A stretch of DNA of 36,534 bases from Saprospiraceae bacterium (GTDB lineage Bacteria > Bacteroidota > Bacteroidia > Chitinophagales > Saprospiraceae): NCBI GenBank assembly GCA_023299965.1, contig JALZVN010000087.1, positions 1 through 36,534 on the forward strand, given 5' to 3'. Of this stretch, positions 26,824 to 31,476 are shown piece by piece (the stretch's first letter is position 1; the number at the start of each line of letters is the position of its first letter). A program made the translations under genes and the position numbers. Below the pieces are notes generated by a model. That model did no database searches. It saw nothing but the letters and a program-made list of their open reading frames with translations, and was not told the origin of the DNA.

Positions 26824-27080
26824 TGTATTTCTTTTTTATTCTCACTAGAGTAAATCAATTACTTTGCCATATTTATTTTTAATGTTATGAGTGCAACAAA
26901 ATACTATCTATTCAGCTTCACTTTTTCTTGCTAAAAACATCTTAATTTAACGCTAACAAGCGTAAGGCATTTTATGCCTTACTGCACTTCTTTATTATTA
27001 TCGTCCATATTCAAAATCTAGAAATCTGAGAATGGTAAATAAAAAAGTACAGATCTTACTAGTACATATTATATTATTTT

Positions 27081-27089
27081 GTAATATTG
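27081..27089 (+). promoter_or_regulatory. Candidate operator: GTAATATTG motif upstream of parA, overlapping a likely Bacteroidota -7-like TATTTTG
   Basis: Sequence ATTATTTTGTAATATTGCAAATACAAAATTTACTACATG; same 7-mer as the array 28221-30555. Confidence 0.5.
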
Positions 27090-27108: not shown

Positions 27109-27861
27109 ATGACAAATATTATTGCAATTGCAAACCATAAAGGTGGAGTTGGAAAAACGACTTCTGTACAAAACATAGGCGTTGCCCTCAGTCGGCTGGG
27201 CAAGAAAGTTTTACTTATAGATTTAGATCCACAAGCCAATCTTAGTGATTCCTTCGGTTTTGAAGACGCGGAAGTTAGTATCTATGATGCATTAACAGAT
27301 AAAGCACCAGCCCCCGTTCATAAGGTTTCTGAAAGTCTGGATATTGTCCCAGCTAATCTAGATCTCTCGGTAGCAGAGGTAGAACTCAGCAATGTACCTG
27401 GAAGAGAGTATGTCTTAAAGGAGATTGTAAATAAATGGAACGGAAAATATGATTATATAATTATTGACTGTCCTCCTTCTCTAGGATTGCTGACTATCAA
27501 CGCTTTAACAGCCTGTACTGAAGTATACATCCCTCTGGATGCCCAGTATTTCTCAATGAAAGGTCTTGATAAGCTGATGTTCATTTTGGAAAAGATAAAA
27601 GCACGACTAAATAAGGAGGTTGAAGTAACAGGAGTCTTTCTAACTCAATTTGACAACCGACTTGTACTCAACAAGAATATTGCTGATATGATAGAAGATT
27701 ACTTCCCGAATAAGGTTTTTAAGACCAGAATTAGGAAAAATATCGCTCTTGTGGAGGCTCCTATTGATGACTTAGATATTTTCACATACGCGCCTAGTAG
27801 TAATGGTGCGGTAGATTACAAAAAACTGAGCTTAGAAATCGTAGCAGCTCACAACATATAA
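27109..27861 (+). CDS. parA: ParA/Soj-family ATPase (deviant Walker A, no N-terminal HTH extension)
   Basis: IAIANHKGGVGKTTSVQNIGVALSRLGKKVLLIDLDPQANLS; YDYIIIDCPPSLGLLTINAL; PLDAQYFSMKGLDKL. Confidence 0.96.
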   Translation: MTNIIAIANHKGGVGKTTSVQNIGVALSRLGKKVLLIDLDPQANLSDSFGFEDAEVSIYDALTDKAPAPVHKVSESLDIVPANLDLSVAEVELSNVPGREYVLKEIVNKWNGKYDYIIIDCPPSLGLLTINALTACTEVYIPLDAQYFSMKGLDKLMFILEKIKARLNKEVEVTGVFLTQFDNRLVLNKNIADMIEDYFPNKVFKTRIRKNIALVEAPIDDLDIFTYAPSSNGAVDYKKLSLEIVAAHNI

Positions 27862-27879: not shown

Positions 27880-28212
27880 ATGGCAAAGGATTTTAAAAAT
27901 AGCATCGGAAGAAAAAGATTAAATACCTTAATCCCTGACAATGATTATGATGCTCAAGTCAAAGTAGAAGAAAAAAGGGAAATGCTAAAGGAAAAGAAGC
28001 AAACTACAACCACTTCAGCCCCTACCCCACCCAGTACAGTAGTAACTACTTTCAGAATAAACACGGAAAAGTTAAAAACAATAAAGGCTATTGCATTTTG
28101 GGATAGAAAGAAAATTCAAGATGTTTTTGATGAAGCTTTAGAAATGTATATCAGTGCTCAACCCCAGGAGGCTGTAAGCAAGGCTATAGAAGAGCATACA
28201 AAACGTACATAA
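27880..28212 (+). CDS. Small putative DNA-binding partner of ParA (possible RHH-type centromere-binding protein)
   Basis: Starts 18 bp after parA; 110 aa; basic, low-complexity N-terminus; C-terminal TTFRINTEKLKTIKAIAFWDRKKIQDVFDEALEMYISA resembles a ribbon-helix-helix fold. Confidence 0.75.
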   Translation: MAKDFKNSIGRKRLNTLIPDNDYDAQVKVEEKREMLKEKKQTTTTSAPTPPSTVVTTFRINTEKLKTIKAIAFWDRKKIQDVFDEALEMYISAQPQEAVSKAIEEHTKRT

Positions 28213-28293
28213 CAATATATGTAATATTGAAATACACACATTACTATGTAGGCCCCCTAGAATAGTATTTTGTAAGCCAAAGCGCTTACGTCA

Positions 28294-28337
28294 CAAAGAG
28301 GGTCCATTCTTATTAAAGAATGGACCCTCTTTGTTTT
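28294..28337. terminator. Strong hairpin after the parA operon
   Basis: 18-bp perfect stem CAAAGAGGGTCCATTCTT (28294-28311) / AAGAATGGACCCTCTTTG (28316-28333), ATTA loop, followed by TTTT. Confidence 0.85.
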
Positions 28338-29176
28338 GAGTTGTCTCTCTGATAGGTTGAATCATATATAATAGACCGAAAATCATTACATATATCTTAC
28401 TCTAAGATCCTTAATTCTATTGTATAAATATAATAGTATAAGACACCATCCAAATAAATATACATATGGCAGCATAAGACACTACCCTACTTGGCGATTA
28501 GCAAGCGCTATTACTAAATGAAATAGATATTTTATTGTAAGGATTACTCTACAATATATGTAATATCATATTCTATATGATACATGTATTATAATATCCT
28601 ATATGATAACACTTTTGATCTTTGCTTTTTCTAAAATACAATAGCCATTTCTTGGCTGTTTACTTAGTACTTCTAGTAATACGTCTTATCTCCTAGTGTC
28701 TTGCCCTATCAGATTGCTAGAAGCTAGATTAGAGACCAATTACAAAATAATACTTGTAATATAACATGTCCAATAAATATAGGAAATATGCTTCTTGCAC
28801 TCAGATTTAAAAGTCATCGTGTTTAAAAGTACTTCTACACCATTTTCTTCTAGATTGGAATAATTAAATAAAGAATAGAAAGAGGCTTTTGAGGATTAGT
28901 ATAAATTAGATCTCATGTACAAGACAATATAAAGAATGAAATAGTTTATAAGCAGGTTTACACATATTAATAGCTTTACAGTATAATATTAGTAATATGA
29001 TATAGCCTGCTCAATTTGAGATTCTGTCAAATTAGAGTAATATCACAAGTCAAATTTAATGCTTCTCGTATGGCATAATCAATGATGGCGAACTTTGATA
29101 AACTACTAGGCTCTAAAAGATATCGAATTTAGTCCTATTCATATTGTTAAGACATGCTATATTACTATATAAGCTA

Positions 29177-29188
29177 TGTAATATTACA
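29177..29188. repeat. Perfect 12-bp palindrome TGTAATATTACA at the orientation switch of the array
   Basis: Direct reading; both half-sites match the array motif. Confidence 0.85.
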
Positions 29189-30102
29189 TTCTTAGTGCAA
29201 AAGTCTATCTCTCTAAATGCAAATCCGACTATATCATTTTAGAATTACACTCGCTTTTCCCAATACTAGTTAAATTAATACATTTCTATCTTATGCCGCG
29301 ATTTGAAAGACTTACTAATATTCTTCTCTAATACTTGAAATCTTATATTACAATTAGAGCAATCTATTAGGCATTACATCCATAGAATGGATAGCTAGAA
29401 TTGATCAATCGGAATACTATATAATCTTAGTAAGTCTATATTACAAAACAATATAACCAAGTTGGAATTACAGTAGCATATGATGATTCTACAGTTCTAC
29501 TTGAATTCAAAAAGAGTTTTGAGGTGCATACCAGTATAGCTAATGATTTGATAGAGGATGTAACAGTGAATATCTCTTCTACTTTGAAATACTAGGGTAG
29601 GGCAGTTTAGATTAGCATTAAATCTTAAAACAGATACTTAAACCGCGTTGAAATGTAAAAGATCTGTTTAAATTGATCCTTGGAGAGAATACATTATAAT
29701 ATTATATTACACATACAGCAGTCTACATCTGAACATTAGCTATTTTTTTTCGCTTCTAGGGAGTACTCGGCATGCCAACTGAGCTATGTTCCCTAAAACA
29801 AATTTCTAGCCCGCTACAGCTCTTAAAACGACCTCTAAGTTAAAGTAGCCGCTATTAAATTACCGCACATAACAGTCTATTAAATAAACAAGGATAGTAA
29901 TATTTGCATTCTCTGTTATACGTGTGTGATTATATTACAGATATTGCCGCTAGATTACTCCGCATATCTAAAATACTTAAGTTCTTGACCAGAGCTTATC
30001 AATCTGGTTTCAAAATTATACGCAATGGGAAGTCCAGAATACAGTAATACCACAAATCTTCTATTACTAATATTACAATTACAGCAATAAAACAATAGAA
30101 GA

Positions 30103-30403
30103 GGGATTAAAGTAATCCTTTAAGCTCTCTACAATTTTTGAAGATCGTTTTATCACTAAATGTAAAATCTAGTGTGTATAAATATTGAATTACAGTCAAT
30201 ACTAATATTACAATATAATATATGTATGCTAAATTTATTAATAATGAAATTTAGGGATTAAAGTAATCCTTTAAGCACTCTACAATTTTTGAAGATCGTT
30301 TTATCACTAATGTAAAATCTAGTGTGTATAAATATTCAATTACAGTTAATACAAATATTACTATACAATATATATATGCTAGTATTACGATTAATGAAAT
30401 TTA
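30103..30403. repeat. ~151-bp tandem duplication (30103-30253 and 30254-30403), each copy carrying one array motif
   Basis: GGGATTAAAGTAATCCTTTAAGC[T/A]CTCTACAATTTTTGAAGATCGTTTTATCACTAA..TGTAAAATCTAGTGTGTATAAATATT.AATTACAGT.AATAC.AATATTAC... in both copies. Confidence 0.93.
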
Positions 30404-30765
30404 ATGGGACTGGATAGGATGGATTTGAGACTTTTGAAAATCACTGAAACTCTTTTATTTAATTGGTACTAATTTCAATTGTTCTTGACTATCTCATAGG
30501 ATCGGATTGTTAACCTTACTAGAATTACCTTAATTATTAATAATACATATATTACAAATACTCGATAGCGTGTAATAGGAATACACTTAAAATCTAATTT
30601 TTGAAATTCTCAAACTATTATTTCGATTTCATCAAACAAAGAGGCGCAAACAGAATACTATTTGGCTTGCTGTCGTATTTCAAGCAAATAACCCATCAAT
30701 TTAAAATTAAATGAAATAAAATTAACTGAGACGTAGGGGTAAGCTATAAATATTGGGTCTTAGTA

Positions 30766-31476
30766 ATGAGAAACAGTTTCATTCACCTAAAATTTTTAAT
30801 TATGAGCTTACAAAGAAATATCATAGAGCAGATAGAATTCTTTAATTGTTTGACTGCAGAAGAAAAATTATTCCTAGCTGATAACTCAGAATTAAAAGTT
30901 AAGGGTAGATACTCCTATATATACTTAGCAGATGAACCTTCATCATTTTTAAATATTTTGCTAAAGGGTACTATTAAGATAGGAACACACTCCGCTGATG
31001 GTAAAGAAATAATCAAATCTATTATCCACCCTCAGGCAATGTTTGGTGAAATGTGCATGATGGGTGAGCAGTCTAGAATAGACTTTGCTAAATCGATGGC
31101 AGATGGAGCAGAGTACTTTTCACTAAAAAAAGAAGTGATGCTTAATCTAATATCATCTAATGCTAAATTGAATAACGCTTTTATGAGTCACATGGGGTCA
31201 AGACTGAAAACAGCAGAAACTAGACTTGAGTCTCTTATATTTAAAGATGCTAGATCAAGAATAATTGATTTTCTAAAAGACAATGTCGAAAGACGAGGCA
31301 GACAAGTAGGATTTGAGATTATGTTCAAGCATTCTTTAACGCAACAGGACATCGCTAATCTAACTGGTACATCCAGGCAGACGGTTACTTCCGTTATGAA
31401 TGAATTGAGGAAAAGCAATTTAATCTACTTTACTAGAAAGAGTATCCTTGTAAGGGATATGGCGAAACTAGGTTAA
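30766..31476 (+). CDS. Crp/Fnr family transcriptional regulator
   Basis: cNMP-binding-like N-terminus (LADEPSSFLNILLKGTIKIGTHSADGKEIIKSIIHPQAMFGEMCMMG) and HTH_Crp (LTQQDIANLTGTSRQTVTSVMNELRKSNLI). Internal Met at 30802 (MSLQRN) is a plausible alternative start. Confidence 0.95.
   Translation: MRNSFIHLKFLIMSLQRNIIEQIEFFNCLTAEEKLFLADNSELKVKGRYSYIYLADEPSSFLNILLKGTIKIGTHSADGKEIIKSIIHPQAMFGEMCMMGEQSRIDFAKSMADGAEYFSLKKEVMLNLISSNAKLNNAFMSHMGSRLKTAETRLESLIFKDARSRIIDFLKDNVERRGRQVGFEIMFKHSLTQQDIANLTGTSRQTVTSVMNELRKSNLIYFTRKSILVRDMAKLG

Follow-up and report, generated by a model that had tools for sequence, protein, structure and literature searches.

The window analysed here is a whole contig of 36,534 nucleotides from a fragmented MAG of a Saprospiraceae bacterium (genome G000, 63% complete). 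Between ~27 and 31 kb it carries, in this order, a gene for a DUF6089 protein on the reverse strand, parA, a gene for a small partner protein starting 18 bp downstream of parA, a hairpin, a 2.55-kb gap, crp, metH and a wzz-like gene (Table 1). A hairpin similar to that of the window is found at a comparable position in the congener G004. The adjacent metH is a core gene (all assemblies being fragmented MAGs), and the contigs that bear the array described below carry metH, exopolysaccharide, TonB/FecR/ECF and T9SS genes. No stop-to-stop frame lying fully within the gap between the partner gene and crp exceeds 54 aa, in agreement with the original prediction for this locus, which had seen no ORF of 60 aa or more there; coding DNA is hence ruled out as an explanation of the gap. 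An Rfam scan of the window matched no RNA family, leaving the array unexplained by RNA, and no tRNA was found on the scanned contigs, including those carrying the array.

Table 1. Features of the partition-like locus, in window coordinates
Feature	Position	Strand	Remark
Site ATATTATATTATTTTGTAATAT upstream of parA	27066..27087	+	3-heptad cluster, candidate operator
parA	27109..27861	+	250-aa Soj-like/type Ib ParA ATPase
Gene of the 110-aa partner	27880..28212	+	candidate centromere-binding protein
Dispersed array	28213..30765	.	non-coding; 19 heptad clusters (13 with at least 2 phased heptads)
Array cluster GTAATATTGAAATACACACATTAC	28221..28244	.	
19-bp perfect inverted repeat	28293..28334	+	likely terminator of the parA-partner operon
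Cluster around the GTAATAT at 28560	28541..28607	.	longest chain (8 loosely scored heptads); tandem repeat 28554-28608
Array cluster ATAATACTTGTAATAT	28747..28762	.	9-bp phase
Array cluster ATAATATTAGTAATAT	28983..28998	.	9-bp phase
Palindromic site GTAATATTAC	29178..29187	.	
Array cluster AGAATACATTATAATATTATATTAC	29686..29710	.	
Array cluster CTATTACTAATATTAC	30061..30076	.	9-bp phase
150-bp unit, two tandem copies	30102..30403	+	one site in each copy
Array cluster TTAATACAAATATTACTATACAATAT	30346..30371	.	
Final array cluster ATAATACATATATTAC	30540..30555	.	ahead of crp
CRP/FNR-family regulator	30766..31476	+	array boundary; syntenic in congeners

The ParA protein (250 aa) bears the deviant Walker A motif KGGVGKTT and lacks an N-terminal HTH. 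Its profile matches are confined to AAA_31/CbiA-type ATPases (AAA_31, E=5e-54) and the solved structures nearest to it are those of ParA/Soj. Size, Walker motif and the missing HTH are those that define a type Ib ParA (~200-250 aa, deviant Walker A, no N-terminal HTH), the class to which it had been assigned; the accompanying label of an orphan ParA does not hold, since the protein has a conserved partner. Two paralogs of this ParA were also seen. The first, 52% identical, is conserved in the genus (L010, L067, L068, L069 and L071; G000:C227 and congeners) and has a partner of 164-170 aa with an N-terminal KKFKxGLESLFG motif and an RHH-like C-terminus. The second, 42% identical (L065 6466-7278, L066 and L011), is preceded by a gene for an MBL-fold-like hydrolase and followed by one for a 90-aa HTH-like protein rather than a ParB, and may be an orphan Soj. 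Neither paralog locus has a GTAATAT array.

The partner consists of an N-terminal KDFxxxIGxKRLNTLIP block, a flexible linker, a predicted C-terminal RHH domain (~residues 54-93) and a third helix. Its N-terminal block appears similar to the LGxGLxxLI motif of chromosomal ParB N-termini. A Pfam search gave no match for the protein and no Pfam RHH model passes. The AF2 model, built on 16 sequences (a 4-sequence model was poor), has a disordered N-terminus, an extended segment and then helices at 62-75, 79-93 and 96-109. Nearly all of its best Foldseek matches are RHH proteins (CopG, StnY, CdbA, NikA, ParG, Arc, MatP and AmrZ), with E values of ~1, as the domain is tiny and the model monomeric, and TM-scores by target of 0.80 for CopG and 0.85 for StnY. 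Weak matches of a PDB sequence search (E near 1) included the RHH proteins ORF56 and omega. It is the consistency of these matches, each with E near 1, that suggests an RHH fold for the C-terminal domain. A small partner, as had been expected beside a type Ib ParA, is present in the form of a 110-aa protein whose RHH nature is a prediction. In another family of the same order, RHH-like proteins of very small size are related to the C-terminal domain (L042, G402:C1 894420, and L037), with no ParA adjacent; viral contigs contained no homolog of the partner.

Within the gap, the original prediction had counted GTAATAT or its complement ATATTAC at 16 loci and guessed that one or two would occur by chance. 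Our recount gave 17 matches at 16 places between 28213 and 30765, two of them overlapping as the palindrome TGTAATATTACA (29177-29188), and dinucleotide shuffles yield a chance expectation of 1.78. Start-to-start spacing is 19-339 bp. An A or T precedes 17 of the 17 matches, where nearly all had been claimed to extend in this way, and one further match lies upstream of parA (27081-27087). The whole window contains 32 matches compared to 10.9 expected. The genome (2.88 Mb) has 254 copies of WGTAATATW, of which 15 fall inside the gap, a density ~70-fold above that of the remainder. A motif density equal to that of other AT-rich intergenic DNA had been named beforehand as an argument against an array: such DNA from the genus (22.6 kb, 66% AT) holds 0.57 GTAATAT per kb vs 6.7 per kb in the window array, and is ~12-fold sparser in the motif than the arrays, so this objection does not hold.

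The array is built from RTAWTAY, a heptad that is nearly palindromic and recurs every 9 bp within short clusters, most of which hold 2-3 heptads. Starting from TGTAATAT, an EM motif search arrived at three RTAWTAY copies at 9-bp steps. Among the 100 exact heptads in four arrays (that of the window and those of three congeners), 14, 6 and 4 pairs are separated by 9, 18 and 27 bp, respectively, compared to 0, 0 and 0 among the 149 heptads found in 137 kb of background. The four arrays contain 13, 12, 12 and 8 clusters with at least two phased heptads (simulated means: 1.8, 1.3, 1.1 and 0.7), that is, 3.4-6.6 per kb vs 0.16 per kb in the background. The sites originally described as WGTAATATW are real, but 9-bp-phased RTAWTAY heptads fit them better than a description as isolated sites. 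At the cluster upstream of parA, GTAATAT begins 28 bp before the start codon, and the four congeners having the pair all carry GTAATATTGCRAATA at precisely this position, -28 of parA. We also observed internal duplications, of 150 bp in G000 and ~157 bp in G003, and growth of the array by internal duplication is plausible. Tandem repeats were rejected as an explanation of the array itself, as only the 150-bp duplication and minor repeats were found. A three-site cluster on another contig (G000:C22) was dropped from consideration as it sits within a coding frame.

Six genomes represent the genus, and four of them (G000, G002, G003 and G004) have the parA-partner pair. Synteny from the DUF6089 gene through parA, partner, array and crp to metH is complete in G004 and G002, where the gaps measure 1811 and 1265 bp. 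In G003 the contigs are broken within the array, of which at least 3.9 kb is visible (at least 294 bp plus 3571 bp), and crp lies on the matching contig; array lengths thus range over ~1.3-3.9 kb in the four species, the G003 value being a lower bound. A blind k-mer count over the four arrays returned TGTAATAT as the top 8-mer (39 observed, 1.95 expected), with 12, 10, 9 and 8 copies per species against 0.63, 0.64, 0.45 and 0.23 expected. GTAATAT occurs at 6.1-6.7 per kb in three arrays and at 3.6 per kb in that of G003. ParA orthologs in the congeners are 90, 88 and 76% identical, and partners 48-69%; the partner's motif and RHH residues are invariant, its invariant residues falling mainly in the N-terminal KDF...G.KRL..LIP block and the RHH block. 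Outside the sites, alignment of arrays between species gives only short matches of 19-38 bp. Sites were retained while spacers diverged almost past alignment, suggesting that the sites are kept while the spacers turn over. The array is hence conserved in relatives although the sequence between its sites has diverged, and a lack of conservation, also named in advance as counting against the array, was not observed.

The partner gene was not seen in the two remaining congeners, G001 and G005, both incomplete assemblies; in G005, the crp contig stops just beyond crp, where the array would start. From the G001 bin (86% complete), metH and close homologs of crp, the DUF6089 gene and the parA-partner pair are all absent, as expected if these genes shared one separate replicon; the replicon may be missing or the bin incomplete. 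No crp-metH adjacency was seen in the 28 other genomes of the family in which metH loci were read, so the insertion cannot be dated in this way.

In all four species having the pair, crp adjoins the array (G000, G004 and G002) or sits on the matching contig (G003), and one could suspect that the sites serve this CRP/FNR-type regulator, or some other transcription factor, rather than the partner. Two loci from a second genus (L034 and L035) make this very improbable. They contain the same ParA and partner pair, with sites upstream of parA, between parA and the partner gene, and downstream of the partner gene, and neither crp nor metH is nearby. The same sites without crp-metH tie the array to the parA-partner pair, as does the site fixed at -28 of parA, and we rejected the CRP-site explanation on the ground that sites accompany the pair in loci without crp.

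The loci of the second genus also have a Rep3 initiator gene with iterons (TATCACAAAnnGAGGGTTT) adjoining the pair, and the congener G002 has a different Rep3 gene 2.3 kb away from its parA, accompanied by ten iterons (AAAAGCTAGnnATTGAGCGC). This proximity, together with the AT-richness of the gap and a sign change of GC skew nearby (one that tracks gene strand), could be taken to mean that the array is a replication origin, made of iterons or AT-rich unwinding DNA for a Rep3 initiator. We give such an origin very little credence. The Rep3 iterons differ from the heptads in sequence and in position, adjoining rep and lying outside the array, which led us to reject iterons as an explanation, and there is no Rep3 gene at the window's locus, nor was one found beside the locus in G003 and G004. 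The GC-skew minimum at the array was set aside because it follows gene strand. A Rep3 gene belonging to another subfamily sits on a separate contig in G000, G003, G004 and G005. At L019 (13141-13798), ten AAAAGCTAGnnATTGAGCGC iterons surround a Rep3 gene; the contig also carries exopolysaccharide genes and metH, which places an origin of plasmid type among what appear to be core genes. A Rep3-family gene different from the one at L019 is conserved in four congeners (L060-L063), distant from any parA seen and, in two of the four, near a DNA-3-methyladenine-glycosylase-like gene.

With no Rep3 gene found beside the locus in three of the species and core genes adjacent, the array might instead be the decaying remnant of an integrated plasmid, its sites persisting only through recent descent. 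This is hardly probable given that ~4-7 sites per kb were kept in four species while spacers diverged almost beyond alignment, and given the conservation of both proteins described above. Related loci with Rep3 and iterons beside the pair indicate that we are most likely dealing with a plasmid-type partition module and not with a purely chromosomal novelty.

The locus shares several features with the partition systems delta/omega of pSM19035 (PMC9499535) and ParF/ParG of TP228 (PMC5016525): a small HTH-less ParA, a partner with a flexible N-terminus and a predicted RHH domain, heptad-type units in phased repeats, and sites at the operon promoter. Type Ib systems have short direct or inverted repeats beside the operon and, as far as sequence goes, 9-bp-phased heptads flank this one on both sides. 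In systems of the pSM19035/TP228 type, 7-10 contiguous WATCACW heptads stand at promoters, and pSM19035 requires at least four contiguous heptads (PMC9499535). Here, by contrast, RTAWTAY units follow one another at 9-bp steps instead of as contiguous 7-bp heptads, in clusters mostly of 2-3, over 1.3-3.9 kb of non-coding DNA near core genes. The Myxococcus plasmid system pMF1 parCAB (PMC3235114) is also type Ib-like, with partner-binding iterons that are dispersed and flank the operon; in that case there are six AGATGTCT sites on an 18.6-kb plasmid, some of them within genes, and a third gene, parC, compared to the ~10-24 clusters gathered here in a single dedicated block free of genes. Dispersed partition sites in RK2, N15 and pSM19035 are likewise cited in passages of PMC3235114. 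The contrast that had been drawn between this array and type Ib plasmids stands as regards the adjacent housekeeping genes, but dispersed type Ib sites are known from pMF1 and the module is likely of plasmid type. What distinguishes the array from known dispersed sites, within the open-access literature, is its gene-free block, its ~10-24 phased clusters, conservation of sites rather than of sequence, and nearness to core genes. From chromosomal ParABS (Soj/Spo0J/parS), which also combines a Soj-like ParA with several separate sites near the locus, it differs in that the sites are not parS palindromes and the partner does not belong to the CTP-binding HTH ParBs: at 110 aa and without a Pfam match, it has neither the N-terminal CTPase nor the HTH of that family.

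Plasmids of Bacteroidota carry distant relatives. In Flavobacterium (pA5BP1), Tenacibaculum finnmarkense and Adhaeribacter swui, plasmid ParAs 53-58% identical to that of the window are paired with similarly organised small partners, having an N-terminal K-x-F-x-G-L-x-S-L-L motif and an RHH-like C-terminus; homology to our partner is detectable only in the C-terminal half. Tenacibaculum plasmids have AT-rich, 9-bp-periodic repeats upstream of parA (CP116296 has a self-match of 0.50 for lag 18 and of 0.48 for lag 9, compared to a mean of 0.36). Their sites differ in being compact (~60-220 bp) and upstream, and no multi-kb downstream array was seen for these pairs.

Homologous pairs on plasmids near replication genes, and beside Rep3 and iterons in relatives, also bear on a further explanation, in which the partner would serve mainly in local regulation or in bridging the nucleoid, the array would be an operator with many sites or a region of silencing/condensation, and ParA would position or disperse the complex with no segregation of a replicon. 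The RHH fold suits repressors and nucleoid proteins, with CdbA and MatP among the fold matches, all four species have a site at -28 of parA, and the locus lies among ordinary genes. We nonetheless judge this explanation unlikely: it does not account for the plasmid setting of the homologous pairs, and the kilobases of downstream sites far exceed what autoregulation needs.

Taken as a whole, the data make it likely that the locus derives from a plasmid and is a type Ib-like partition system with a centromere extended into a kilobase-scale array, on a chromid or on a chromosome with a captured module. A chromid is a secondary replicon that combines core genes with replication and partition of plasmid type. 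The gene-free, site-studded DNA is probably a stretched-out bacterial centromere amid housekeeping genes. The partition array spread over kilobases that had been predicted is borne out insofar as a conserved, non-coding, multi-site array follows the pair across genera; its role in partition would be the following. ParA, as an ATP dimer, would bind the nucleoid non-specifically. The partner would dimerise through its predicted RHH domain, and its dimers would bind RTAWTAY heptads cooperatively at 9-bp steps: at the cluster upstream of parA, leading to autoregulation, and at the ~19 clusters over 2.55 kb downstream, forming the centromere. The N-terminal peptide of the partner (IGxKRLNTLIP) would contact ParA and stimulate ATP hydrolysis, and the array-bearing replicon would move along the ParA gradient by a diffusion ratchet.

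RHH partners are reported not to spread, and how few dimers per complex can be reconciled with a diffusion ratchet is an open question (PMC9499535). As such partners are thought not to spread, a kilobase array would gather partner dimers through sites encoded in the sequence. More tentatively, then, this might be an RHH-type system in which ParB spreading is replaced by sequence, with dozens of 9-bp-phased sites over kilobases of gene-free DNA on a replicon bearing core genes (chromid or chromosome), the sites being selected while the spacers turn over. Natural kilobases of encoded partner sites would offer a direct test of RHH loading through varied site number and spacing, and plasmid relatives with compact sites are available for comparison. 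For the Saprospiraceae, the locus would add a case of a plasmid-type partition module residing amid core genes.
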